Below, piece by piece: positions 2,292 to 18,501 of a stretch of DNA of 20,758 bases (its first letter is position 1; every line of letters starts with the position of its first letter). The DNA is from a virus, in IMG/VR virus record IMGVR_UViG_3300050821_005947, positions 1 to 20,758 of that record; one strand, written 5' to 3'. A program made the translations under genes and the position numbers. Under the pieces are notes generated by a model. It had not been told where the DNA came from. It did not search any database and saw only the letters and a list, made by a program, of their open reading frames with translations.

Positions 2292-2980
2292 AGTGCCCAG
2301 TCCAACGACCGGGCGATGTTGGGATCATACTCGACACCGATGTCTGGCCACTCCATTGGCTCCACGCCAGGGACCAGCCCCGCTGGGGGCCATGTGCCAC
2401 CGTGGGCCATGGGCGGACCTTGGATGATGTCCCACTTGGGCGGCGTCACGGCGACGAAGGACCGAGAGCCTTCCCAGCCCATCGCGCCGGGGACCCAGCA
2501 GTAGTTGACCTTTTGCTCGATGAGCTGGTCCAGCATGACGCCAGGAGCGTAAGCACCGATGAGCCAGGAGTGCTTAAAGAGGACCGTGTCCATCATGTAC
2601 CAATAGTTGCCGGCCACGTTCATCCAGCCCTCGGAGGACGGGCTGTCGTCCAGGGCCGGGAAGAGGGCACTCTTTCCAGTGGGGACGATGCCTTCGAGCC
2701 GCCCCCCTGGGGAACACATGGCGATGAATGCGTTGCCGTCATAGGTCCCGGCCGCTCCGCCCTGTAGGGCACGATCCGCAGTGGTCTCCCAGATCAGCCC
2801 TGTGTGCTTGCCCCGCGCCTTGATCGCGGCATGCTCCTCCGGGGAGTAGTTCTTGCAGTACCGCATGAAGAAGTCAAACTCCTCGCACTTGGCGAGGTAG
2901 GGCTCGATTGAGGTGTCCAGGTCTATGCCCCGGAGGATGACCATTGACGAGGACCCGGTGGATGTCATCTGTGCGCTCAT
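2288..2980 (-). CDS. Unknown protein between Sak4 and the ssDNA-binding candidate
   Basis: 230 residues, soluble, with a strong start (AAAGGAG seven bases before ATG 2980). The N-terminus is polar (Ser/Thr-rich), the middle has many aromatic residues (NYWYMMD near 125) and the last third is Pro/Trp-rich (KWDIIQGPP, GGTWPPAG, MEWPDIG). I see no ATPase, nuclease or zinc-finger motif and do not recognise a family. The start overlaps the ATPase stop by four bases (ATGA) and the end overlaps the next ATG, so it is co-translated with the recombination proteins. A recombination or replication accessory role is inferred only from position. Confidence 0.65.
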   Translation of the reverse strand: MSAQMTSTGSSSMVILRGIDLDTSIEPYLAKCEEFDFFMRYCKNYSPEEHAAIKARGKHTGLIWETTADRALQGGAAGTYDGNAFIAMCSPGGRLEGIVPTGKSALFPALDDSPSSEGWMNVAGNYWYMMDTVLFKHSWLIGAYAPGVMLDQLIEQKVNYCWVPGAMGWEGSRSFVAVTPPKWDIIQGPPMAHGGTWPPAGLVPGVEPMEWPDIGVEYDPNIARSLDWAL

Positions 2981-3801
2981 GTTGATGCTCCTTTGAAGAT
3001 TTGCGAGAAGTCTGGTGCTAAGGTGGATGAGAGTGGAAGCGCCCTCCTCTTTGTAATGCCACTTGCCATCGAGGGCTCATTGGACCAGTAGTAGCGGCCG
3101 TCCTCGCAATAGGCGGTGACTAGCTCATCTGGCATCTTGCGGATGTGAGGCGCGGCCCGTTGGCCTATGACATCGAGCGTTGTACCAATCGAACCAGTAA
3201 TTGGATCCACCTCGCGGTCCATGTGGGCGGTAGCAATTGCACTGCATTTGGTCTGTCCAAAAAAGAGCCGCAGAAAGGACAAAAGGAAACCAATGGCAGC
3301 GAAGTACTCGGGTTTGGAAGGTACCGGCTTTCCGCCCACCACACACTGCATGACCATAGTGCACAGTGGGGACAGTGAGTCCATGACGATGGCTCTCTCA
3401 GGGGACCACTCCGCGGCATCTCCATACTCCGTTCCACACGCATCACAGGTGAAGTTCTTGCAGATGGCGAAGAGTTCCATGAAGCCGGTGTAGGAGGACT
3501 TCTTTGGATCGGTCCTGGAGATGGCATCTGCGACACTGTCGTTCTGCAAGATGCGGACGAAGGAGGAGATGGTGTCCCATGTCACGTTGGTCGGGAAGTG
3601 GTAGTGGACATGGAGACCTTGCTTGCACCCATGAGGACCGAAGATGGCTTGGTGGCCGGGCTCCATGGAGATTACGAAGGTCTCTAGACCTGCGCCTTTG
3701 CGGACCACACCATCGGTGTCGGCATATTCAGGCAGCAGGGTGAGGATTGATTGGGTCTTTCCGCTCCCAGGGAGACCCTGGACGATGACGTTGGTCTTCA
3801 C
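2977..3801 (-). CDS. Sak4-like RecA-fold ATPase (phage recombination/annealing)
   Basis: 274 residues beginning at GTG 3801, which overlaps the upstream TGA (GTGA) and has GAGGTGCAGGA just before it. The P-loop is GLPGSGKT at 9-16. Walker B is AIVMDSLS at 136-143. IATAHMDRE at about 188-196 fits the sensor-like AH motif of the AAA_24/Sak4 group of short RecA-like ATPases. A C-x4-C-x2-C cluster (C113, C118, C121) may bind metal in an inserted loop. Sak4 proteins assist single-strand annealing with a phage ssDNA-binding protein. The neighbouring Cas4-like nuclease upstream and ssDNA-binding candidate downstream fit that module. Residues are intact and the length is usual for the family. Confidence 0.75.
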   Translation of the reverse strand: MKTNVIVQGLPGSGKTQSILTLLPEYADTDGVVRKGAGLETFVISMEPGHQAIFGPHGCKQGLHVHYHFPTNVTWDTISSFVRILQNDSVADAISRTDPKKSSYTGFMELFAICKNFTCDACGTEYGDAAEWSPERAIVMDSLSPLCTMVMQCVVGGKPVPSKPEYFAAIGFLLSFLRLFFGQTKCSAIATAHMDREVDPITGSIGTTLDVIGQRAAPHIRKMPDELVTAYCEDGRYYWSNEPSMASGITKRRALPLSSTLAPDFSQIFKGAST

Positions 3802-3986
3802 TCCTGCACCTCATTGGCTTGTTCGCTCTCGGTGGAGAACATTAGGGTGTAGCCCCCATGATAGGTGGCGATGGAAATCTCCCGCCGGGTGGCATCACCT
3901 CCAGTGACCCGGCGGACTAGCTTCGCGCCGAAGTCCTTTATGAGGCCCTGGACATCGTCCTGGGTGAGCTTGATCTCGATATGCAT
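3798..3986 (-). CDS. Small protein between nuclease and Sak4, unknown function
   Basis: 62 residues (MHIEIKLTQDDVQGLIKDFG...). The start region alternates strand and helix and the C-terminal tail is acidic. It is preceded by AAAGGA about 11 bases before ATG 3986. The ATG overlaps the nuclease stop (TGATG) and the end overlaps the GTG of the ATPase by four bases. It is not a recognised family. The tight coupling argues that it is expressed with the nuclease/ATPase pair. Confidence 0.65.
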   Translation of the reverse strand: MHIEIKLTQDDVQGLIKDFGAKLVRRVTGGDATRREISIATYHGGYTLMFSTESEQANEVQE

Positions 3987-5023
3987 CAGTCATTGGTCCT
4001 TTCAAGGGGGTTCCACCGCTCAACGACGAAGCGCTCAAGGTCCGGCACCTGGGTGTCGCAGATGTCTTCCAGGAACTGGCAGGACCGGTTGTAGGCGTTG
4101 CAGGCGTGGCCAAAGGATTGGCCGAAGGGGTGGGCCTGGGCCAGGACCTCTCCGAGGTTGTGCTGGATGAATGCGAGATAGGACTCCATCATCTGGAGGA
4201 CATCGCTCTGGAGCTGACGTAGCCAGCGCTCGATCTTCCAATTAGCGCGGTCCACTAGGGCCTCGGCGTAGTGGCACTTTGTCTTCAAGACCTGGATGCC
4301 ATGGACCAAGAACTGGTTCATCTTCATCCCGTAGCCCTGGGCGAGCCAACAGTAACCGGTGAACTGGCCCCGCAAGCGCCACTGGGAGCGCCAATTGTCG
4401 CTATCAACGTATGAGCCTGTGGACTTGTCATCAAGACCGAATAGCACTCCGAAGCGGTCTAGCACCGCGTCAAAGCGGCCGGCGTAGACTAGTTGCTCCC
4501 CGGTGACCGGGTGGAAGCACCCCGGGATCGGTCTGGCTCCGCTAAACTCCACCATGGGGTGGCCGTTGACGAGGGCCAGTTGCTGCATTGGGTCGTCCAG
4601 GGGCCATTCACCGAAGTACCCATGATGGGCCATGAGGCAGCCCTCCAGGGTCTTGGCTTCCTGGCCACGCGACATGGGGGCGGGGAGGGGACCTTCGGCG
4701 GCCCACTTCTTGATTACATGCTCCCCACCCTTGGTGAGGGCCTGTATGGGGGAGAGGCCCTCGACTGCATAGGCCACTTTGGTAGCCTCAAGGCCAGAGG
4801 CTAGCACTCCGCCGAAGACAAGGTCAATGGACTTGCCCACTACAGGCTGGAGGTGCTCATCAAGCTGGGACTTGCGGAGGCCCTGGATGTGAGAGCGGAA
4901 GAAGGAGTGAGGGCAGGACCACCACGCCTCCCGCATGGTATTGTCGATGACCATCGGGAAGGGGAACATCTCTAGGAGCTGTTCGCGGCTCATCTTGTGG
5001 CTCATTTGGCTAGTTGCTTTCAT
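3986..5023 (-). CDS. Cas4/RecB-like PD-(D/E)XK nuclease with probable Fe-S cluster
   Basis: 345 residues. The catalytic core is visible as E159, GRFD at 182-185, LDDK at 197-200 and the QFTGY helix at 220-224, matching motifs I-IV of PDDEXK_1 nucleases (Cas4, AddB/RecB C-terminal domains, phage exonucleases). One cysteine near the N-terminus (C37, in SCPHSFFR) and three near the C-terminus (C308, C315, C322, spaced x6/x6) reproduce the four-cysteine arrangement that holds a 4Fe-4S cluster in Cas4-type enzymes. The likely role is 5' or 3' end resection of phage DNA to supply single strands for the Sak4/SSB pair encoded downstream. The ATG at 5023 lies inside the upstream gene (14-base overlap). 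Alternative internal ATGs exist at residues 7 and 11. Confidence 0.82.
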   Translation of the reverse strand: MKATSQMSHKMSREQLLEMFPFPMVIDNTMREAWWSCPHSFFRSHIQGLRKSQLDEHLQPVVGKSIDLVFGGVLASGLEATKVAYAVEGLSPIQALTKGGEHVIKKWAAEGPLPAPMSRGQEAKTLEGCLMAHHGYFGEWPLDDPMQQLALVNGHPMVEFSGARPIPGCFHPVTGEQLVYAGRFDAVLDRFGVLFGLDDKSTGSYVDSDNWRSQWRLRGQFTGYCWLAQGYGMKMNQFLVHGIQVLKTKCHYAEALVDRANWKIERWLRQLQSDVLQMMESYLAFIQHNLGEVLAQAHPFGQSFGHACNAYNRSCQFLEDICDTQVPDLERFVVERWNPLERTND

Positions 5024-5279
5024 CTTGTGCGGCAGAGGCGCGGAACATATCTTGCATCTGGTCCATGGTGAGCGCAGAGGCGGCCTTTGTTGCTTTGGCC
5101 TTGGCCTTGGTCACCGTGGACAAGTGTTTGGCCCTGGACTCGCGTCCACGCTGGATGGATAGGATCAAGGCCCGGTAGCGGTCGGGGGTGACCGGCTTCC
5201 CATTGGCCACATCGAGTCGGGCATCTGCTAGCGCAATCTGCGCCTCGGTCTCGTCTTCGATGATGTCAGTGCGTTGCAT
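5010..5279 (-). CDS. Small helical, Ala/Lys-rich protein, unknown function
   Basis: 89 residues. The first half (DARLDVANGKPVTPDRYRALILSIQ) forms two helices around a VTPDRY turn. The second half is Lys/Ala-rich (TKAKAKATKAAS), possibly nucleic-acid binding. Small proteins of this shape occur in phage early operons, but I cannot assign a family. It starts at ATG 5279, a few bases after the stop of the tiny membrane peptide, and overlaps the nuclease start. Confidence 0.65.
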   Translation of the reverse strand: MQRTDIIEDETEAQIALADARLDVANGKPVTPDRYRALILSIQRGRESRAKHLSTVTKAKAKATKAASALTMDQMQDMFRASAAQDESN

Positions 5280-5281
5280 GT

Positions 5282-5371
5282 CTACCTACCGGAGAGGATG
5301 ATGTACAAGAGGAGTAGGACTAGCGAGGCGATCCAAGAGACGAAGGTGGCCCAGCCAAGGATGCTAGTCAA
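5282..5371 (-). CDS. Tiny single-pass membrane peptide (29 aa, TTG start)
   Basis: A short frame begins at TTG 5371, overlapping the stop of the RHH-like gene (GTTGACTAG), with GAAGGTG as ribosome binding site inside that gene. It reads (M)TSILGWATFVSWIASL followed by a Leu/Ile run ending ILSGR, that is, one hydrophobic helix with a basic C-terminus. It fills the only gap between its two neighbours. It falls below usual gene-calling length, so the call rests on ribosome binding site, packing and hydrophobicity. Confidence 0.5.
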   Translation of the reverse strand: MTSILGWATFVSWIASLVLLLLYIILSGR

Positions 5372-5600
5372 CGCTGTTCACCTTCTGCTTTTCGAGCCAC
5401 AGGCGCAGGCCCTCCTCCACAACGCGGGACCACCCATAGGGCGGCATCATGCCAGTGTGAGGGTCCAGGCACAGCAATTTGATCTGCCGATGGAGTTCCA
5501 TGGACATGCGGAAATTGACGTTGATGGTTTGGGAGGTAGGGAGGCCGTCCGGTCTTACAAGACGAGGCATTTCCGCGTTGCCCTTTAGTTGGTGGACCAT
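5364..5600 (-). CDS. Putative ribbon-helix-helix-type small protein
   Basis: 78 residues from ATG 5600, or 68 from the internal ATG at 5570, which has AAAGGG 11 bases upstream and is the better start. The core runs TINVNFRMSMELHRQIKLLC then GWSRVVEEGLRLWLEKQK: one strand followed by two helices, as in CopG/Arc-type DNA-binding proteins. The loop between the helices is longer than usual, so the assignment is tentative. As the first gene after a 109-base gap in the recombination block, it could regulate that block. I see no clear promoter in the gap 5601-5709. Confidence 0.5.
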   Translation of the reverse strand: MVHQLKGNAEMPRLVRPDGLPTSQTINVNFRMSMELHRQIKLLCLDPHTGMMPPYGWSRVVEEGLRLWLEKQKVNSVD

Positions 5601-5709
5601 GCCGGGTCGCTAGTCCGGTCTCAGCGCTCTGTGGCTGGTGCAGCTTACACTACTGGCCCATGAAAAGTGAGGGTTCCTATCTCCGTTTACCCACAACCGA
5701 AGAGCGGGC

Positions 5710-6180
5710 CTAGCCCTTGTTTAGCTCGTCAAGCTCGGCTTGGTTGAGGGCGTCAGCCTCGGCCTGGGTGTCAGGGGAGCCTTCATAGCCGTCCGGGGGT
5801 GCGGCGGATGTGTCGGAGCCAGCTTCGGAGGGTGACGGAGCGGGCTCTGGCATAGGCCCCTCGTTGATCGGCTCCCCCGGCGGAGGTACCATCCCCTCTT
5901 GAACCGGCAAGGGAGGAGGGGGCGGAGGCTCCACCGAGGGCGGAGGAGGCGGAGGAGGTGGCGTGGCCTCGTTGGCCAGCTCATCACTCACACCTAGCGG
6001 GGCCGGCGCTGCCGGGGTGGCATTCGCCCCCATCGCGACCACATGCGCATTGGTGCCCTCCACCATGGCTAGGAGCTTCGCTAGTTCCTCCTCGGTGTAG
6101 GTGAACGCGCCGCTAAAGAGATGGGCCGAGTTGTCTGGAATGGCGGCGAGCTGGACCTTGATATCGTCTAGGATGGCCAT
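5710..6180 (-). CDS. Proline-rich acidic protein, unknown function
   Basis: 156 residues from ATG 6180, which has CAGGAG about 10 bases upstream. A GTG at 6231 directly after the upstream stop is possible but lacks a ribosome binding site. The N-terminal 50 residues are ordinary (MAILDDIKVQLAAIPDN...). From about residue 70 it becomes low complexity, with two Pro runs separated by SVE, then a Pro/Glu/Ala/Gly-rich acidic tail ending AELDELNKG. The tail should be disordered. Such tails can act as flexible linkers or scaffolding-like segments, but nothing here identifies a role. It lies second in the left operon behind promoter 6722-6695. Confidence 0.65.
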   Translation of the reverse strand: MAILDDIKVQLAAIPDNSAHLFSGAFTYTEEELAKLLAMVEGTNAHVVAMGANATPAAPAPLGVSDELANEATPPPPPPPPSVEPPPPPPLPVQEGMVPPPGEPINEGPMPEPAPSPSEAGSDTSAAPPDGYEGSPDTQAEADALNQAELDELNKG

Positions 6181-6231
6181 CTGGCTTATCTCCTGGTCAG
6201 TGTAGAAAGGGACACCTTGGAAGCTTAACAC

Positions 6232-7398: not shown

Positions 7399-7414
7399 GT
7401 GCCATTGTTGGCAC
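7399..7414. promoter_or_regulatory. Operator-like palindrome at a transcription start
   Basis: GTGCCA (7399-7404) and TGGCAC (7409-7414) form a perfect 6-bp inverted repeat around four bases. It lies exactly where transcription from the promoter at 7450-7421 should start, a classic repressor position. As RNA it would be a short 5' hairpin before the ribosome binding site. Confidence 0.4.
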
Positions 7415-11369: not shown

Positions 11370-11541
11370 CTCTGACATCAAGCACCTCGACAACAAGCTG
11401 GACAACGTCAACGCCGAGCGGAACCGCCAACACGCCTCCAACCTGAAGCTCCTCGTTTCCACGCTAAGTGGAGTTCTCCTCCTGTTGTTGAGTGGCCTAG
11501 GTGCGGTCGCTTACGCTGTCCTAGAGAAGGTCATGAAGTGA
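11215..11541 (+). CDS. Coiled-coil protein with C-terminal transmembrane helix (XhlA-like type)
   Basis: 108 residues from GTG 11215, chosen for GGAGGT seven bases upstream. An ATG at 11245 is the alternative. A heptad-like helix runs from about 12 to 78 (ITRLEQRLTTTEENYQKHLDD, VVQNLSSDIKHLDNKLDNVN), then one TM segment (about 81-102, LLVSTLSGVLLLLLSGLGAVAY) and a short basic tail. This architecture resembles hemolysin XhlA-like lysis accessory proteins. Its position before the holin supports a lysis role. It overlaps the terminase reading frame by 155 bases in another frame. The first residues are the less certain part. Confidence 0.65.
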   Translation: MRFFITRVQQMAHDSITRLEQRLTTTEENYQKHLDDCLTNRGEMRVVVQNLSSDIKHLDNKLDNVNAERNRQHASNLKLLVSTLSGVLLLLLSGLGAVAYAVLEKVMK

Positions 11542-11780
11542 CCCTACAAGATCCACACGCCACTGGCCCAGATCCAGGGCACAATCTGGACCAAGCCAGG
11601 GCCAGCCGGACCACCGGTACAGCCGCAGGTCTAGCCAGTGCAATTGTTGTTGTGAGTGACCAGCTCCTAGTCCAGTTCGCCCACCTCCAGCTCTCCACCG
11701 CCCTCTGGGGAGCCGTCACCGTCATCCTCACCTACTTTCTGGGCCGCTGCCTCCACCTCCCAACAGGGGACAACCAATGA
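11538..11780 (+). CDS. Putative two-helix holin
   Basis: 80 residues from GTG 11538, overlapping the upstream TGA (GTGA). After a polar N-terminus come two hydrophobic segments, about 28-45 (AAGLASAIVVVSDQLLVQF) and 52-70 (ALWGAVTVILTYFLG), linked by a short turn, then a polar tail. Size and topology fit class II holins, which open the inner membrane at the end of infection. No endolysin is visible beside it, so it is named by topology and context only. Confidence 0.65.
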   Translation: MTLQDPHATGPDPGHNLDQARASRTTGTAAGLASAIVVVSDQLLVQFAHLQLSTALWGAVTVILTYFLGRCLHLPTGDNQ

Positions 11781-12076
11781 AGCGCTTCCTTCCACTTACC
11801 CTAGTCTTAGGTCTATGCGCGTGTAGTCAGCTCTCTAGTGTGGTGAGTGATGCCCAAAAGGCCTGCACCGCCGCCACTCCGGTCCTCAACGTGGCCACCA
11901 GCTCCACAAACCCTACGGCACAGCAGCTAGGCTACAGTGGCCAAGTATTATGCACGGCGGCCGCCACTGGCAACGCCCCTACCGCCGACGCAAACACGCC
12001 TAACTGGCTGGGCACCGTGGTGGGCGACATCCTACCCCTGATCCAAGTCGGCATGGCGGTAGCGCCACTCCTATGA
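11777..12076 (+). CDS. Lipoprotein, possible outer-membrane spanin component
   Basis: 99 residues. MKRFLPLTLVLGLCAC is a signal peptide with a lipobox (LGLC or LCAC), so the mature protein starts at a lipidated Cys. Two later cysteines (about 30 and 59) could form a disulphide in the periplasm. The C-terminus is hydrophobic (DILPLIQVGMAVAPLL). Directly behind the holin, a lipoprotein suggests an Rz1-like spanin subunit, but there is no Pro-rich Rz1 signature, so this is inference. ATGA overlap with the holin stop. Confidence 0.65.
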   Translation: MKRFLPLTLVLGLCACSQLSSVVSDAQKACTAATPVLNVATSSTNPTAQQLGYSGQVLCTAAATGNAPTADANTPNWLGTVVGDILPLIQVGMAVAPLL

Positions 12077-12363
12077 GGCGCACCCTCACTATCTGCTTCG
12101 CTGCCACTTTAGCAGTGTGGGGCCTCAAGGCTATGGGGGCGACCCAGTGCCCAACTGGCCAGTTCATGTTCGCCTTCGCCCAACCGCCGTCTAGCTGTGC
12201 GAACGTCAGTGCAAGCGCCCTAGGCCCCTTCGCCGCCAGGATCCTCCTAGGCACCCAGGTAAGTGGCAACGCCGTGGCCATCCCAATGGGCAATGAGTTC
12301 GTCTTCAGCGGCACCACGCTGCACATCACACCGCCCCTCGTAGCCAACTTCGGAGGCCTTTAA
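12073..12363 (+). CDS. Exported small protein, unknown function
   Basis: 96 residues. A basic start MRR plus hydrophobic core (LTICFAATLAVWGLKAMGA) forms a Sec signal peptide with likely cleavage after GA near residue 23. The mature part of about 73 residues has two Cys (CPTG, SCAN), suggesting a disulphide, and short beta strands (FVFSGTTLHITPPLV). No family is recognised. The start overlaps the lipoprotein stop (ATGA). Second of five export-signal genes in a row. Confidence 0.65.
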   Translation: MRRTLTICFAATLAVWGLKAMGATQCPTGQFMFAFAQPPSSCANVSASALGPFAARILLGTQVSGNAVAIPMGNEFVFSGTTLHITPPLVANFGGL

Positions 12364-12884
12364 TGGAAGACTTCAACAGGGCATGGTCTTCGTTCATGCG
12401 CCTTGCCTCCTTCACCGTCTTCTTGTGTCTTGTTGCCTGCGATCTTGCCCATGCGGCCGGCACTGGGAACAACTTCATCACACCACAGACCCCGAACCGT
12501 GGCTGGGCCTCCTTCGTCCAGGGCACAGACAGCGCTGGCACCTACAAGACCATCTACACCGGCGGCACTAACGGCTCGCTCTGCAAGGCCCTGATCGAGA
12601 CCAACAACGATGCCTCGGCCACGCACCTAGTCACCGTCCAGCTCGTCATCGGCGCGGCCAAGATCGGAGGCACCGCAGTCACTACAGCGAGCAATGATGG
12701 CTTCGCCAACGGTGTCCCGCCCAAGAACTTCATGCTCGCTACCATCTGGCCCGGCCTCCCTCTGGACAGCGATGGCAACCCGTTCATCTTCCTAGCTTCT
12801 GCTGACACCCTCCAGGCCACCTTTGCCACCTCACTCACCGCCTCCGACCAGATCAACCTCTACGCCAAGTGCGATGACTACTAA
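12363..12884 (+). CDS. Exported beta-rich protein
   Basis: 173 residues, ATG 12363 with GGAGG about seven bases upstream. A signal peptide follows a short charged lead (MRLASFTVFLCLVACDLAHAAG). The mature part, with phrases like GTYKTIYTGGTNGSLCKALIE, VTVQLVIGAAKIGG and LPLDSDGNPFIFLA, has the repeated-strand look of small beta-sandwich or jelly-roll proteins found among phage virion surface and receptor-interaction proteins. The export signal makes a virion role doubtful. The N-terminal CysLeuValAlaCys could alternatively be a lipobox. Its stop overlaps the next ATG. Confidence 0.65.
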   Translation: MEDFNRAWSSFMRLASFTVFLCLVACDLAHAAGTGNNFITPQTPNRGWASFVQGTDSAGTYKTIYTGGTNGSLCKALIETNNDASATHLVTVQLVIGAAKIGGTAVTTASNDGFANGVPPKNFMLATIWPGLPLDSDGNPFIFLASADTLQATFATSLTASDQINLYAKCDDY

Positions 12885-13749
12885 GCGCCTCCTCGCCTGC
12901 GCCTTTGCCGCCCTCATCGGCGGCGTCCTCGTTGCCAAGGCGGACTACTTCTCGTACAACCTCCATGGGCGACTAGAAGACAGCGTCACCCGTTTTAACA
13001 AACAAGCGGCCAACCTGCTCCCCATACCACGTGGCTACATCGCTGGCTGCACCACCTCACCATCATCTGTCACTATCCTCCAGATCACTGGCTGCTACAG
13101 CGTTGATAGCACCAACGCCGTGGTGATGAACCAGACCTCGACCTTCACCAAGTCTACCGCAGGTTCATGGACGGCAGGAAGTGGCAACAACGGCATGGGT
13201 GCCGGCCTCACTATTGCATTCAACACTTGGTACCACGTCTTCCAAATAGTCAATGGTGGTCTAGTTGATTATTATTTCGACACCAATGTGGGCGCCGCCA
13301 ACGCCCCCGCCGGCACGACCGCCTTCCGCCGGATTGGCTCATTCCTCACCAACGGCAGCTCCCAAATCATCTCCTTCAGCCAGAACGGAGATGAGTTCCT
13401 TTGGTTGGCCGCAATCGCTGATATCACGACATCGACGCTATCTACCACCGCGACATTATTCACACTGAGTGGAGTCCCGCCTGGAGTCAAAGTCAACGCG
13501 CTGATGCGCGGTGGCGTTGCAAATTCGGGTACAGTTGATATACTCATAAATTCTCCTGACGAGACAACTATAGCAGGAGGATCGATAGGTAGTAACGCAA
13601 ATATAGTTGCGCCCTCTCTCGGTGGTGCTTTTTCGATTTCTATTCGCACGAATACCACTCAACAGATACGGGCTGTGGCAGGAGGTGCTTCTACGACCCT
13701 AGATGAATTTACCTACGGTTGGATCGACACTCGTGGTAAGAACAATTGA
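12874..13749 (+). CDS. Exported beta-rich protein, possible adhesin/fibre-like
   Basis: 291 residues from ATG 12874 (an upstream open extension to 12823 lies inside the previous gene). Signal peptide MTTKRLLACAFAALIGGVLVAKA. The mature part is Ser/Thr/Gly/Asn-rich with many short strands (FNTWYHVFQIVNGGLVDYYFDT, FRRIGSFLTNGSSQIISF). This region reads like the C-terminal domains of phage fibre proteins, where WYHVF and FRRIGSF motifs recur. Codons shift toward A/T in the last 240 or so bases (from about 13500), which suggests domain exchange. Function unknown. Confidence 0.65.
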   Translation: MTTKRLLACAFAALIGGVLVAKADYFSYNLHGRLEDSVTRFNKQAANLLPIPRGYIAGCTTSPSSVTILQITGCYSVDSTNAVVMNQTSTFTKSTAGSWTAGSGNNGMGAGLTIAFNTWYHVFQIVNGGLVDYYFDTNVGAANAPAGTTAFRRIGSFLTNGSSQIISFSQNGDEFLWLAAIADITTSTLSTTATLFTLSGVPPGVKVNALMRGGVANSGTVDILINSPDETTIAGGSIGSNANIVAPSLGGAFSISIRTNTTQQIRAVAGGASTTLDEFTYGWIDTRGKNN

Positions 13750-14846
13750 TAAGGCTAGGTCTACTCATGTTGGCCCTTCTTAGTGCCCACAATGCGACAG
13801 CCCAGCCCGTCGTGCAGCAATACACCTTCACTCTGAACAACGCCCCACTCTTCGGTGGTAATCCAAAGACTAACCAGACGATGGACCAAGCTTCGTGCCA
13901 AGCAATTCTAGCAAACATCCAATCCACAATGCCAAGTAGCTACACAATCACCACAACGGGAATGCCCAACACTTTGTCATGGTACGATCCAGACACTAAG
14001 ATTGGTGTGACCGATACTTGTCTAAAGGACCCTCGTGGTCTCCACCGCACCCATGTAGCGAGCAATCAGATCATAGGCACACCTTCTCCTGTCGCTCTCC
14101 CAACATCCCCGATGGTCATCGTCGCCGATGGGCAGAGTTACTTCGGGAACCGTATAGACGAGTTAATGATCGCCGCCCCTGGTGTTATCGGTTACCCATA
14201 TCTCTACCCAGATCAACCATCCACTGGTGGCACCCTCCAGTACCAGGACCCAGACCCAATGACTGACGGCCAAGGCGGTAATGTCCTGACACGCCTCGCT
14301 ACTGAGCTAGTAACATCTGGCAAGGCCACAGGCGTAGTAGCTGGCTCCGTCGCCCTTGGCGGCTCCTCCATCGTCCAGCACCTCCCCGGCACGCCTCAAT
14401 ACATCAAGGCCGAGGCTTACCTGCGCGCCCTAGGTCATGGTCTAGGACTAATACCCACATATATCCTATGGGATGAGGGCCAAACTGCGACGTTCGCTGG
14501 CATCTCCACAGCAACCTGGGTTGCCGACTTCGAGGCAATCGTCGATGGCTACAATGAGGACATGGGCCTCACATCCACCAAATGGGTAGTGGCGCAGGAG
14601 AGCCTAGGCTACGGACGCCCAGCTACATATGGGGCCTTTAACGCCGCTGACATCATCTCAGATGTGGAGAGCGCCCTCAACATCCGCGCCGCCCAAGCCG
14701 CAGTAGTTGGCTACAATAGTGGCCAGGTCCTAACCGGTCCCGACATGGATGCGCTCATAAAGGAACGCTTCACACTTGACGGTGTGCATCCAGACGGTGT
14801 AGGAGCGAGCCTCCGGGCCGCTGCTTGGCTACCAACATTAAACTAG
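13746..14846 (+). CDS. Secreted SGNH-type esterase (sialate-O-acetylesterase-like)
   Basis: 366 residues from TTG 13746, overlapping the upstream stop (TTGA). Signal peptide MIRLGLLMLALLSAHNATAQ. An N-terminal domain with two Cys (51, 92) precedes an SGNH hydrolase: ADGQSYFGN (127-135, Ser131), AGSVALGGSSI (199-209), LWDEGQTA (241-248) and LDGVHPDGVG (344-353, Asp345 and His348). The GQS block and WxEGxxD-like block III place it nearest the carbohydrate acetylesterases that trim O-acetyl groups. It should act outside the cytoplasm on a sugar coat or on peptidoglycan. In block III, Thr follows EGQ where Asp is common. It could modify the host surface, or help lysis or adsorption. Confidence 0.7.
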   Translation: MIRLGLLMLALLSAHNATAQPVVQQYTFTLNNAPLFGGNPKTNQTMDQASCQAILANIQSTMPSSYTITTTGMPNTLSWYDPDTKIGVTDTCLKDPRGLHRTHVASNQIIGTPSPVALPTSPMVIVADGQSYFGNRIDELMIAAPGVIGYPYLYPDQPSTGGTLQYQDPDPMTDGQGGNVLTRLATELVTSGKATGVVAGSVALGGSSIVQHLPGTPQYIKAEAYLRALGHGLGLIPTYILWDEGQTATFAGISTATWVADFEAIVDGYNEDMGLTSTKWVVAQESLGYGRPATYGAFNAADIISDVESALNIRAAQAAVVGYNSGQVLTGPDMDALIKERFTLDGVHPDGVGASLRAAAWLPTLN

Positions 14847-14855
14847 GAGTATGAA

Positions 14856-15203
14856 ATGGCCGGACCAGTCAAAGGCACACTCCGTCAGCTAATGCGATCC
14901 AATCAGCCAGTGCCTAGTTGGGTGGTGGCCTCCACCTGGGTGGATGTGGTCGCGATCACAGCCGGAACAGCCTCTAACTATACCGTCCCAACTGGCATCT
15001 CCTGCCTACGCCTCACACCCACTGTGAGCCCCGTCTATGGGAGCTTCGTCGAGACCGCCGTCGTGCCCACTGTTGGCGTCACGACTGGCACGGCCTCCTT
15101 CCCGGTTCCGCAAGGACTGGAGATCGTCGCGCCTAATGATGGAGACACGCTCAGCCTGATCTGCGCCTCTGCCTCGGTCGTCACCATCGAGGGCTGGGCC
15201 TAG
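14856..15203 (+). CDS. Small beta-rich phage protein
   Basis: 115 residues from ATG 14856, preceded by AGGAG. No signal peptide. After MAGPVKGTLRQLMRSNQPVPSW it is strand-rich (VAITAGTASNYTVPTG, CLRLTPTVSPVYGSF, SLICASASVVTIEGWA). It resembles a minor structural or head-associated protein, and the family is not named. It sits just before the large terminase and, unlike the five genes upstream, looks cytoplasmic, which fits a virion component. Confidence 0.6.
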   Translation: MAGPVKGTLRQLMRSNQPVPSWVVASTWVDVVAITAGTASNYTVPTGISCLRLTPTVSPVYGSFVETAVVPTVGVTTGTASFPVPQGLEIVAPNDGDTLSLICASASVVTIEGWA

Positions 15204-15205
15204 GC

Positions 15206-16783
15206 GTGTCTAGCCCATTCCGCCCCGTCATCGAGACCCTGTTCAAGATCGTCAACCGTAGTGGCGAGACAGTCCCTTTCGTGCTCAACGACCAACAAGC
15301 ACAGCTCGATGCCGACTGGTCTAGGCGCAACCTCATCACTAAGCTCCGCCAACACGGCGGCATCTCCTCCTATGTCATCGCTCGTTACGCCGCTAAGTGC
15401 ATCTCAATGGAGAACCGCAACTGCGTCCTCGTCAGCCATGAGGCCGAGGCCACCTCACGCCTACTCAACAGGGCGCGGTTCATGGTCACCCACATGCCGC
15501 CTGACATCCGCCCACCGAAGCTCGACCGCGACAGCACCAGGGCGATGTACTTCTCTGAGACCAATTCCTATTTCTACATCGGCACCGCTGGGCAGAAGAC
15601 CTTCGGCCACGGTGACACCATCACGGACTTACATCTGAGTGAAGCTGCTAGGTACTCCCACCCTGAACAGATCCGCGACGGTACATTCCCCGCCGCTGAG
15701 CAAGGCGAGATCACCATTGAAAGCACTGGTGATGGGATGGGCAACTGGTTCCACCAGCAGGCCATGCTCGCCCGCGAAGGGATGGGCTTCAAGCTCTTCT
15801 TCTTCCCATGGGTCGGGGTGCCCTCCTGCACTCTAGCCCTCACTGACATCGCGGCTGAGTATGTGCTCAACAACCTGAGTGAGGAGCTAGAGGAGAAAGT
15901 CCTCTACAGCCTAGGCATCTCCCTAGGCCAGCTCGCCTGGAGGCGCGAGCGCATCGCCGAGTTCGGTGGTGACCTCACAAAGTTCAAGGAAGCCTTCCCT
16001 CGCACCTTCGAGGAGTGCTTCCGTCCGGCCGGCCTCTCGTTCTTCCCCAAGGTCAACTACAAGGAGACCAAGGCTTGGCGACAAGAGGCAAAAGGTTTGC
16101 ACGTCTTAGAGGGCCATCCGCGAGAGCGCGGGCGGTACGTTTTCGGCGCAGACGTAAGCGCTGGCACCGGGAATGACAACTCCACCATCATCGGCTTCGA
16201 CCTAGACCTAGGGGAGCAAGTCCTTGCCTTCGCCGCCAATGACCTCGCCCCGCATGAGTTCGGCCTCCAGGTCAACGAACTTGGTCGCCGGTTCAACCAC
16301 GCCTACGTCAATGTCGAGCGCAACACCTTCGGTCTTATGGCGCTGGAACGCCTTGTTGCTACTTACCCTCTTGATCGCCTCCATCGTGGGTCTAGTGCAG
16401 CTCAATCCAGCCAACAGATCATGGTACATCCCCTCCACAACTACGGCACTCTTGTAAGTGAGTCCACTCGGGGTCTGCTCATCAGCCACGCCAGGATGAT
16501 GCTCGTGGACTGGACCATTCATGACCCGCTCCTATATACGGAGCTAAGCAACTTCGTCGAGAACAAGACCGGCAAGTACGAGGCCGGCCCGGGCACCAAG
16601 GATGACCGCGTCTTCGGCTGTTGCCACGCCCTTGTCTGCGTCGAGAGGGCCGAGATCGCCACCTACATCCCCGTACCGAAGTCCTTCAGGACCACGGTTG
16701 ATCCGTTCTCCTGGGAGGGCCTATTCAAGGGCCACGACGGTCCCTCCGTCAACGAATACGGCTTCTCCACCAGGTTCGGCTAA
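15206..16783 (+). CDS. Terminase large subunit
   Basis: 525 residues from GTG 15206. The ATPase has the terminase-type Walker A KLRQHGGIS (46-54, K-x-R-Q-x-G-x-S form), Walker B ITDLHLSEA (139-147) and coupling motif IESTGDG (171-177). The RNase H-like nuclease has ADVSAGTGNDNS (D316), VNVERN (E371) and DDRVFG (D466/D467) as the acidic metal-binding residues. It powers DNA entry into the procapsid and cuts the concatemer. Full length with all motifs intact. The start has a poor ribosome binding site and lies two bases after the previous stop, so coupled translation is likely. Confidence 0.93.
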   Translation: MSSPFRPVIETLFKIVNRSGETVPFVLNDQQAQLDADWSRRNLITKLRQHGGISSYVIARYAAKCISMENRNCVLVSHEAEATSRLLNRARFMVTHMPPDIRPPKLDRDSTRAMYFSETNSYFYIGTAGQKTFGHGDTITDLHLSEAARYSHPEQIRDGTFPAAEQGEITIESTGDGMGNWFHQQAMLAREGMGFKLFFFPWVGVPSCTLALTDIAAEYVLNNLSEELEEKVLYSLGISLGQLAWRRERIAEFGGDLTKFKEAFPRTFEECFRPAGLSFFPKVNYKETKAWRQEAKGLHVLEGHPRERGRYVFGADVSAGTGNDNSTIIGFDLDLGEQVLAFAANDLAPHEFGLQVNELGRRFNHAYVNVERNTFGLMALERLVATYPLDRLHRGSSAAQSSQQIMVHPLHNYGTLVSESTRGLLISHARMMLVDWTIHDPLLYTELSNFVENKTGKYEAGPGTKDDRVFGCCHALVCVERAEIATYIPVPKSFRTTVDPFSWEGLFKGHDGPSVNEYGFSTRFG

Positions 16784-16789
16784 GGGCTG

Positions 16790-18055
16790 ATGTACCGCAT
16801 CCTCATCATCTCCAAGGAGGGCGACGGCCTCGGCATTGGCCAGCGCCTAGCCCAAGAGGGATGCGACGTTGATGTCTGGGTAGAAGAGGAGCGCTTCAAG
16901 GAAGCCGGCAAGGGCATGGTCAACCGGGTCACCACTTGGGAGCCAGCAAGCAAGTTCGCCGACCTCATCATCCTAGACTGTGTTGGTCTTGGCAAGCTCG
17001 AACCTCAGCTCAAGGCACTCAATAAGCCCATCCTTGGCTGCTCCGCAGTCCTGGACAAGATCGAACTAGACCGAGGTCTAGGAATGGACCTCTTTCGCAA
17101 AGCGGGCATAGCCATCCCTGAGACCCACAACTTCACCTCCACAGCTGAGGCGGACAAGATCGTCCGATCCCTAGAATGGAAGACTGGCTTCGTCATCAAG
17201 CCGAATGGGAACGTAAGTACGGCCAAGACTATGGTCGTCAAAGATCAGAAGCAATGGGACCGCTGTTTGTCGATGATCTCCCCAGACAGCAGTGGCATAG
17301 TCCAAAGGGTCTTGAATGGCATCGAGGTATCCACGGAGGGCTGGTTCAACGGGCGGGAGTTCCTGAAACCGATGAACCACACCTTCGAGGAGAAGAGGTT
17401 CCTGGCGGGCAACCTGGGCCAGAACACCGGCTGCATGGGGAACGTGGTCCTCAACGCCGGGGACGGCAATCGCCTCACGAAGGAGACAGTGGAGCGCCTA
17501 GGTGGTTTCCTCGCTCAGGTCGGCTACCGGGGTCCGTTTGACATCAACTGCATTGTCACCGAACAGGGGGCCTTCGCCCTAGAGGCCACCTCCAGGATGG
17601 GCTACGACGCGGTGGAGGCCTTGGCAGAAGGCTTGAATGAACCCCTTAGCGACCTCCTCTATGACGTAGCTCTTGGCACCAGGACCAAGATGGACCTCAC
17701 CGACCAGACCATGATCGCGGTGCGGCTCTCCATCCCTCCGTGGCCCATGCGCAAGCCCGACAAGGACTCCCTAGGAGAGCCCGTCAATGGCATCGACGAA
17801 AAGACAATACCTCATCTATTCATCACCGACCTGTATCGTGACCGCGAAGGCTACAAGACAGCCGGCGGTGATGGTGTGTTGCTCAAAGCTACCGCCATCG
17901 GAGCACCTCGTGAAACTGACCTCGTCGGTGAAGCTCGCAAGAGGGTTTATCGCCTACTTGACGCCATCTCGGTGTCGTCCAAGCAATACCGCATAGACAT
18001 CGGAGAGCGGGTCTCGGGTGAGGTGAAGCAACTCAAGGAATGGGGCTGGTTGTGA
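16790..18055 (+). CDS. PurD-like ATP-grasp ligase
   Basis: 421 residues from ATG 16790 (AAGG just upstream). The order of motifs follows phosphoribosylamine-glycine ligase. There is an N-terminal Rossmann-like part (MYRILIISKEGDGLGIG), FVIKPNG (134-140, ATP-binding Lys137), GIEVSTEGWFNG (177-188), EEKRF and NLGQNTGCMG (208-217, compare NTGGMG in PurD), and FALEATSRMGYDA (262-274) where PurD has a GluPheAsnXArg metal and substrate block. The Asn is replaced by Thr and the following GlyAspProGlu is absent. ATP-grasp chemistry (acyl-phosphate, then amide or ester bond) is likely, but the acceptor is probably not phosphoribosylamine. Its place between terminase and portal is unusual. A role in base, surface or small-molecule modification is open. 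Confidence 0.7.
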   Translation: MYRILIISKEGDGLGIGQRLAQEGCDVDVWVEEERFKEAGKGMVNRVTTWEPASKFADLIILDCVGLGKLEPQLKALNKPILGCSAVLDKIELDRGLGMDLFRKAGIAIPETHNFTSTAEADKIVRSLEWKTGFVIKPNGNVSTAKTMVVKDQKQWDRCLSMISPDSSGIVQRVLNGIEVSTEGWFNGREFLKPMNHTFEEKRFLAGNLGQNTGCMGNVVLNAGDGNRLTKETVERLGGFLAQVGYRGPFDINCIVTEQGAFALEATSRMGYDAVEALAEGLNEPLSDLLYDVALGTRTKMDLTDQTMIAVRLSIPPWPMRKPDKDSLGEPVNGIDEKTIPHLFITDLYRDREGYKTAGGDGVLLKATAIGAPRETDLVGEARKRVYRLLDAISVSSKQYRIDIGERVSGEVKQLKEWGWL

Positions 18056-18501
18056 TTACAGATTTAGTATACTTCACAAGTAGATGTACTTTGGTTTATA
18101 AGACGAAATTGTTAACTCCTTGTTGGGAATGGCAATTAGCAGTAAACAATAAAGGTTACGGAGTTATAAATGCACGTGGAGGTGGCTCGTCTTTCGCGCA
18201 CAAACGCTTATGGGAACGGCATAATGGGACTGTACCTACTGGACTAGTCCTTGGCCATGTATGTAGAAATGCACGTTGTATTAATCCATTACATGTTAGA
18301 CCAATTACCCCAAAACGAAATAGTGCTGAAACAGATTATGTCCGCCCAATTCAAGTAATGTGTGGAAATGGGCATGTTATGGACGAGGAGAACACATACA
18401 TCTACAAAAAGCGTGGTCTTATTGAGCGTGCTTGTAAGATATGTAGACGGTATAACTTGCAAGTTTCTAGATGGAGGCGGCGTTATGGCGGAAGGTTATA
18501 A
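18040..18501 (+). CDS. HNH homing-type endonuclease (AT-rich insertion)
   Basis: 153 residues from ATG 18040; GTG 18052, overlapping the ligase stop, is the alternative. CWEWQ, GYGVIN, AHKRLWERHNG (His54) and GHVCRNARCINPLHVRP (72-88, His73, Asn82, His85, two Cys) are the HNH_3 fold of phage homing endonucleases. A C-terminal CGNGH and CKIC pair adds a zinc knuckle. Such enzymes cut an uninfected relative's genome to spread their own gene. GC falls to roughly 40% here against about 60% on either side, and codons are A/T-ending: clear signs of transfer. It sits neatly between two genes, overlapping both, and supplies the portal ribosome binding site. Confidence 0.85.
   Translation: MGLVVITDLVYFTSRCTLVYKTKLLTPCWEWQLAVNNKGYGVINARGGGSSFAHKRLWERHNGTVPTGLVLGHVCRNARCINPLHVRPITPKRNSAETDYVRPIQVMCGNGHVMDEENTYIYKKRGLIERACKICRRYNLQVSRWRRRYGGRL

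Follow-up and report, generated by a model that had tools for sequence, protein, structure and literature searches.

The window analysed here, the whole 20,758-base IMG/VR virus record IMGVR_UViG_3300050821_005947, carries a block of five consecutive genes, named below by their start positions (11777, 12073, 12363, 12874 and 13746). Sequence comparison supports the view that their products look truly exported and that the block sits inside a late operon. At least two of the proteins, 12874 and 12363, are shown by homology to be putatively exported versions of proteins made signal-less in the tail-fibre cluster of other phages. In both families signal and paired cysteines occur together, so that the proteins very probably fold in the oxidising periplasm with one disulfide each.

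Tail-fibre-cluster proteins behind predicted signals

Protein 12874 corresponds to the C-terminal head of phage tail fibres, set behind a predicted signal peptide (approximately residues 1-22); the head domain spans approximately residues 50-291, and cysteines lie at positions 59 and 74. Relatives are encoded in 32 of 33 candidate viral-contig stretches, always matching within residues 32-291; on their side the match covers the C-terminal 200-250 residues of the open reading frame (ORF), and 28 of the 32 ORFs are 320-1296 residues long. Thirty isolated-phage records match as well, and in three of the six that were opened (L038, L039 and L040) the gene comes immediately or shortly after tail or baseplate genes. 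The predicted structure of the mature protein (mean predicted local distance difference test score, pLDDT, 84.9; predicted template modelling score 0.80) is similar to tail-fibre models in BFVD (Rhizobium phage Palo tail fiber, E 1.1e-17), BPP-1 Mtd (Z 9.6, root-mean-square deviation (rmsd) 2.6, 101 residues) and, through residues 149-261, the fibre tip of Bdellovibrio Bd2133 (Z 8.4, rmsd 2.9, 100 residues). Thus 12874 is like the heads of long fibres in sequence and like phage fibre heads in fold, with Mtd over about 100 residues, but differs in having a signal peptide where the fibres have a shaft and a virion-binding part: only about 27 residues separate signal and head, and they contain no recognisable shaft or virion-binding domain.

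Protein 12363 is, on the same kind of evidence, the putatively exported form of a small jelly-roll protein found signal-less before a prophage fibre gene. Its signal region reads MRLASFTVFLCLVACDLAHA, and its mature cysteines are at positions 74 and 170. Homologues with signals occur in contigs L153, L154, L155 and L156, and one without a signal in the prophage-bearing Herminiimonas contig L119 (9364-9774, 136 aa). The latter begins near the expected mature start of 12363 and lies directly upstream of a signal-less fibre with a 12874-type head, an order of genes that the window shares. An AlphaFold model of 12363 (mean pLDDT 78) shows a jelly-roll fold; it scores highest against the cement protein of Helicobacter phage KHP40 (Z 9.5), with many other jelly-rolls behind it. 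Because the L153, L154 and L155 homologues have no lipobox, plain Sec cleavage is favoured for the family; against this stand an IAAC string in the hydrophobic core of the L156 homologue and LVAC in 12363 itself, and lipidation may occur. Direct viral-contig scans with 12363 and with 13746, and phage searches with 12363 and with the L153 homologue, returned nothing useful.

Signals were called with a rule of our own (n-region charge, hydrophobic core, -3/-1 cleavage residues). Applied to Escherichia coli K-12 proteins, sorted into three classes from their gene names, it was positive for 20 of 23 exported, 2 of 51 cytoplasmic or flagellar and 4 of 20 inner-membrane ones. The initial annotation had read export signals on five ORFs, all of which are present on the plus strand, neighbours overlapping by 1-11 bases; the rule agrees for 11777, 12073, 12874 and 13746, while 12363 is rule-negative from the first ATG, where the n-region has a net charge of 0, and passes only from the internal in-frame ATG at 12396. 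None of 27 other likely window genes, hand-picked out of 147 ORFs, is rule-positive, and the crude-ORF background (viral, bacterial and isolated-phage loci, some overlapping) gives 142 of 2100; in our ORF lists only the longest ORFs were retained, which can hide true genes. Assuming independent genes, the chance probability of five rule-positive genes in a row is about 1.4e-6, and 5e-5 across 33 genes. Chance or artefact was rejected on the performance of the rule in E. coli, the absence of hits in the rest of the window and the recurrence of such genes elsewhere.

The remaining three proteins are less well placed. In 11777 the signal peptide MKRFLPLTLVLGLCA is followed by lipobox cysteine 16, in line with the lipobox that had been claimed for one of the five: a lipobox-like LCAC string is present, and cysteines lie at positions 14, 16, 30 and 59. 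For 12073 no homologue was found in family searches and contig scans, and the segment after its signal resembles a fibre linker by eye only. Protein 13746 looks like an SGNH esterase, as had been proposed, in so far as it contains the blocks GQS 129, GGSS 205, WDEGQ 242 and DGVHP 345, the first and last of which we take to be the catalytic Ser block and the Asp-x-x-His block of SGNH enzymes; it has two mature cysteines and is 27% identical to one SASA-like ORF of a phage contig (tblastn, E 1e-3). The proposal found no echo in curated families or structures, with no useful match in Pfam, PHROG, NCBIfam or PDB, and PDB sequence searches in general gave nothing useful.

Paired cysteines accompany the signals

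The mature block proteins of the window contain exactly two cysteines each, and the comparison of fibre heads suggests that this pairing belongs with export. For the head set, further scans gave the best 80 of 130 viral-contig relatives and 20 in bacterial genomes; 112 heads were reduced to 104 by removing 8 rows with shared names. A good signal near the N-terminus is present in 10 of the 104: those of the window, L111 (the contig of L017, with L008 near-identical), L041 (the contig of L015), L094, L042, L043, L044 and L074, and of L122 and L129 from bacterial genomes. The signal label requires 8 changes on the head tree, at least 4 of them forced by well-supported branches, so that the signal arose or was lost several times.

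Among the head columns, four pairs hold cysteines in at least two rows. Three of these occur only in signal-bearing heads (3/10, 3/10 and 2/10, versus 0/94 each), and the fourth only in signal-less ones (2/94); the columns of the window's own pair are without it in all 94 signal-less heads. Together, recurrent pairs are found in 7 of 10 signal-bearing versus 2 of 94 signal-less heads (Fisher 1.9e-7, uncorrected for kinship and for the post hoc choice of pairs). The 12363 family behaves alike: Cys74 and Cys170 are present in 4 of 5 signal-bearing members and absent in the signal-less L119 protein, and L153 has another pair. Disulfides formed in an oxidising compartment would lead one to expect even cysteine counts, and the exported proteins fit this. 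Across the window, L153, L155 and L156 (kinship ignored), an even non-zero count is found in 20 of 21 exported versus 3 of 21 neighbouring proteins, and an even count including zero in 20 of 21 versus 8 of 21; starts and genes were hand-picked for this comparison, which leaves out L154 and the exported-looking but rule-negative L155 5767-6075. The exported L155 protein at 7413 has 11 cysteines. In annotated stretches of isolated phages, even non-zero counts occur in 6 of 8 rule-positive versus 19 of 95 other coding sequences.

Several points stand against the association. The recurrent pairs were chosen after looking, as all column pairs common to at least two rows; 3 of the 10 signal-bearing heads have none; and among 100 rule-positive proteins from a crude list the cysteine count is even and non-zero in 53, odd in 28 and zero in 19. 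Only 4 independent signal/no-signal pairs lie on starred branches of the tree, too few for a sign test to reach 0.05; in these, cysteine pairs go the same way as the signal in 2.6 on average and never the opposite way.

The association of signals with cysteine pairs is an argument for genuine export and for disulfides formed in the periplasm. That the hydrophobic N-termini are not export signals at all, being virion helices or uncleaved membrane anchors, is accordingly very improbable, even if the rule's inner-membrane hits would suit such anchors: several homologues have a charged n-region, a core and Ala-x-Ala-like ends, cysteine pairing tracks the signal, and the signal-less 12363 homologue starts near the expected mature N-terminus.

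Signal-bearing fibres and exported blocks in other phages

Some signal-bearing proteins are certified as fibres by parts other than the head. These are L041 6902 (tail-fibre phrog_4492, E 1.4e-28), L044 4480 (a tail PHROG, 3e-19, and a Collar domain), L073 4626 (Peptidase_S74, 1.8e-11) and gp19 of Burkholderia phage BcepC6B (tail-fibre phrog_11393, 2.3e-14). Five of the ten signal-bearing proteins checked against PHROGs had no match, including the fibres of L074 and L111; the N-terminus of L111 matched nothing in phages, and that of L015 gave one short match.

Around these fibres, some further features were observed. The L073 protein (4626-6215) combines a signal peptide, fibre-like repeats and a Peptidase_S74 chaperone with a hydrophobic C-terminal stretch, as if the chaperone were membrane-anchored. 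The two heads from bacterial genome contigs, L129 6123-7166 and L122 9683-10729, may lie outside prophages, because the next ORF in L129 is YD-repeat-like by eye. L052 (5035-6954) has three consecutive rule-positive genes, and its own 12874-type fibre has no signal. A GroES-like co-chaperonin is encoded in the phage late operon of L074 (1937-2335, phrog_3188, E 9.7e-15) and of L042 (1501-1902, E 1.1e-14).

Blocks comparable to that of the window accompany the 12363 homologues. Five rule-positive genes lie among siphophage-like tail genes in L153, six beside podophage-like tail genes in L155, and five next to P2-type baseplate genes V, W and J in L156; judged by eye, as are these tail types, exported blocks recur in podo-, sipho- and myophage-like contigs.

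In six annotated stretches of isolated phages, 8 of 103 coding sequences are rule-positive, namely three tail-fibre-cluster genes, one esterase, the annotated spanin BcepC6B gp24 and three that are membrane-protein-like. The three cluster genes, orf035 of Xanthomonas phage PBR31 ('putative structural protein'), P26218 gp24 and BcepC6B gp19, follow the tailspike directly or one gene on. In its C-terminal half orf035 resembles the C-terminal ends of tail fibres from Pectobacterium and Klebsiella phages, and P26218 gp24 is assigned to the cluster by position alone. These three proteins and the esterase, PBR31 gp40, have 2 or 4 mature cysteines each.

BcepC6B gp19, annotated as a tail fiber protein, resembles the window's proteins in its signal and its tail-fibre PHROG; it has 4 mature cysteines and lies between tailspike and holins, but it is one gene rather than a block of five, and a signal-less tailspike precedes it. 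PBR31 gp40 is likewise an exported phage SGNH-type esterase near lysis genes, but a single gene on the other strand; the PBR31 paper describes it as an SGNH esterase with a signal peptide, for which the authors suggest a role in lysis, and its main text uses 'signal peptide' once, for gp40 (PMC10975493). In the Bdellovibrio MAT proteins (Bd2133, Bd3182) a signal peptide precedes trimeric adhesins that resemble phage fibres, and some of them carry Peptidase_S74 (PMC10769870). A conserved beta domain of ~130 aa comes behind their signal; in 12874, about 27 residues lie between signal and head. They share signal and phage-type fibre with the proteins described here, and the Bd2133 tip matches the 12874 fold, but they are a predatory bacterium's own prey-entry proteins and not part of a phage late operon; they are examples of phage-type fibres with signals that can serve as extracellular adhesins. 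PBSX XepA and SPbeta YomS, also phage beta-sandwich proteins, are from Gram-positive hosts and show weak fold resemblance only (12363 versus YomS, Z 7.6; 12874 versus XepA, Z 5.4); XepA is reported to leave the cytoplasm in the course of phage development and to be missing from the particles (PMC6834076).

Within the open-licence literature, as far as its text was accessible, no paper on Sec signals of tailed-phage fibres was found. The link between DsbA and phage in PMC10249906 is a host capsule effect and not fibre folding, the sole mention of 'signal peptide' in the rV5 proteomics paper is a reference title (PMC3606486), and passages of PMC3765740, PMC10820202 and PMC6116005 concern lysis proteins, mainly endolysin signals.

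Setting and possible roles of the block

From about 10.4 kb onward the genes of the window lie on the plus strand (Table 1), and the terminase large subunit (TerL) downstream places the block in the late or packaging operon. The initial annotation had set it between holin and terminase; the terminase part is borne out, with TerL following after one signal-less gene (14856), whereas no holin could be confirmed upstream, 11538 having no family match and 11248 only one at E 0.28 to a holin PHROG.

Table 1. Features of the block and its surroundings in the window
Feature	Position	Strand	Basis
Possible small terminase subunit	10689	+	phrog_2538, E 0.085 only
Small ORF upstream of 11538, hydrophobic C-terminal stretch	11248	+	holin PHROG, E 0.28 only
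Small ORF upstream of the block, hydrophobic C-terminal half (by eye)	11538..11780	+	gene order
Putative lipoprotein, 99 aa	11777..12076	+	rule-positive signal peptide, lipobox, hydrophobic C-terminus
Predicted exported protein, 96 aa	12073..12363	+	rule-positive; signal peptide, then short segment with two cysteines
Predicted exported jelly-roll protein, 173 aa	12363..12884	+	homologues, AlphaFold model; alternative start 12396
Predicted exported fibre-head protein, 291 aa	12874..13749	+	rule-positive, homology, model
Fibre-head domain inside 12874 (residues 50-291)	13021..13746	+	alignments, fold matches
Predicted exported SGNH/SASA-like esterase, 366 aa, TTG start	13746..14846	+	rule-positive, motifs, one 27% match
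Protein without signal peptide, 115 aa, ends the block	14856..15203	+	rule-negative
Terminase large subunit, downstream of the block	15206..16783	+	phrog_2, E 3e-12; 71% identical in L034
Gene in portal position	18485	+	no clear family match

The nearest relative found, L034, has large proteins 71-74% identical from TerL onward but cannot show the block, because its sequence starts inside TerL; a search for TerL relatives that include the upstream region otherwise gave just three contigs at 19% identity, and a megablast of the late region against phages gave nothing useful. Between TerL and the gene in portal position lies a PurD-like ATP-grasp protein (16790-18055; TIGR00877, E 3.6e-20, below the cut-off; PF01071, 7.6e-11), unusual for a packaging module and 72% identical in L034. 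It is followed, before the portal-position gene, by an HNH endonuclease gene (18040-18501) that looks recently inserted, because L034 has a 77-aa membrane-type ORF at that place. On the minus strand, a Sak4-like annealing protein (phrog_124, E 3.2e-7) lies near a PD-(D/E)XK exonuclease-like gene (phrog_1218, E 4.6e-4) at 2977-5023, perhaps an early recombination pair, and a possible Rv2525c-like glycoside-hydrolase lysin (2288-2980, Pfam E 0.064 only) is distant from the late genes.

The initial annotation had considered a cassette that alters the cell surface (exclusion, receptor trimming, biofilm release) or a new lysis module. This finds partial support: the block is exported-looking and lies in a late operon, and its nearest described parallels, PBR31 gp40 and XepA, are envelope-acting or lysis-linked. 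Tentatively, and with less than even confidence, we favour a late set of exported adhesins and an esterase that masks or trims receptors, outside the cytoplasm and not in virions; for it speak the window head without a virion-binding part, the co-exported esterase and the separate signal-less tailspikes of BcepC6B and PBR31. The block proteins would be made late, cross the inner membrane and act as a set outside the cytoplasm. The 12874 head and the 12363 jelly-roll might attach to a glycan or receptor of the host surface, from the periplasmic side and, once the cell has lysed, on fragments of its envelope; the 13746 esterase might strip acyl groups from the glycan that they bind, and the 11777 lipoprotein might anchor the set or help to open the outer membrane. 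With receptors masked or trimmed, the dying cell and its debris would not trap progeny. Llp of T5 and Cor, small receptor-masking exclusion lipoproteins that act on the receptor from the periplasm, offer a possible functional model; no sequence link to them was found, and the block has instead several adhesin-like proteins and an esterase.

A number of observations weigh against this masking or trimming role, or blunt its evidence. Exported blocks lie among tail genes and not beside known exclusion genes, and PADLOC, built for defence systems, had no match in 7 proteins; NCBIfam gave nothing useful either. The SGNH call for 13746 draws on motifs; the best PDB fold Z values (9.6, 9.5 and 8.4) barely exceed the tool's 'typical' 7-8; and the signal label is hardly clustered on the head tree (8 changes versus a shuffled mean of 9.6, 33 of 500 shuffles being as low). 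In L043, residues 26-199, behind the signal, are similar to the N-terminal parts of signal-less tailspikes from Vibrio, Shewanella and Thalassomonas phages and, starting at its residue 16, from PBR31. In three contigs, G001-G003 (40.8, 41.1 and 43.9 kb, of uncertified completeness), every recognised fibre-like ORF is signal-bearing.

The last two observations point towards virion fibres routed through Sec, in which fibre and decoration proteins would be virion parts, matured in the periplasm with disulfides and docked on tails once holin and endolysin open the cell. Tail fibres are taught as cytoplasmic products, and the initial annotation had argued from the premise that virion proteins lack Sec signals. 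This premise is weakened twice: 12874 and 12363 are tail-fibre-cluster proteins by homology, and in relatives signals are found on whole fibres, with seemingly no signal-less fibre elsewhere in the contig. Among 30 signal-less proteins checked from G001-G003 none matched a tail-fibre PHROG, but the check is weak, as 12 of the 30 had no match at all; a divergent signal-less fibre could hide there, because PHROGs also missed the L074 and L111 fibres. The tail-fibre or tail PHROGs, Collar domain and Peptidase_S74 of L041, L044, L073 and BcepC6B, the phage capsid cement protein as best fold match of 12363, and the fact that P22 tailspikes attach to heads in vitro all suit this route. Yet no virion-binding domain is recognisable in 12874, a signal-less tailspike exists besides the signal-bearing gene in both BcepC6B and PBR31, dilution at lysis would make docking inefficient, and nascent surface glycan might trap exported heads; on balance, Sec-routed virion fibres seem rather unlikely here. 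Similarly doubtful is the wider proposal of a class of tailed phages whose receptor-binding fibres and decoration proteins would pass through Sec, gain periplasmic disulfides and be mounted at lysis, with the block as a multi-part version.

A lysis accessory module, with 11777 as a spanin-like disruptor and the other exported proteins helping to breach the envelope, as proposed for PBR31 gp40 and XepA, is improbable. The block does adjoin small hydrophobic ORFs, 11777 has a weak match to the Rz-like spanin phrog_16495 (E 0.11), a lysis role was suggested for PBR31 gp40 by its authors (PMC10975493), and 12363 and 12874 resemble YomS and XepA in fold. Those Z values, however, fall in the range where unrelated jelly-rolls score, no endolysin or proven holin is adjacent, and the L153, L155 and L156 blocks lie among genes read as tail or baseplate.

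In summary, the recurrence of signals with matching cysteine pairs on fibre heads, across several kinds of tail genes, points to a number of phages that deliver adhesins to the envelope, either as an exported adhesin programme that would guard progeny and receptors or as part of a virion assembly that would take place outside the cytoplasm. Both readings bear on the annotation and use of phage adhesins, and the block is a hint that fibre-cluster proteins may have a function or a way of being assembled that has so far escaped notice.

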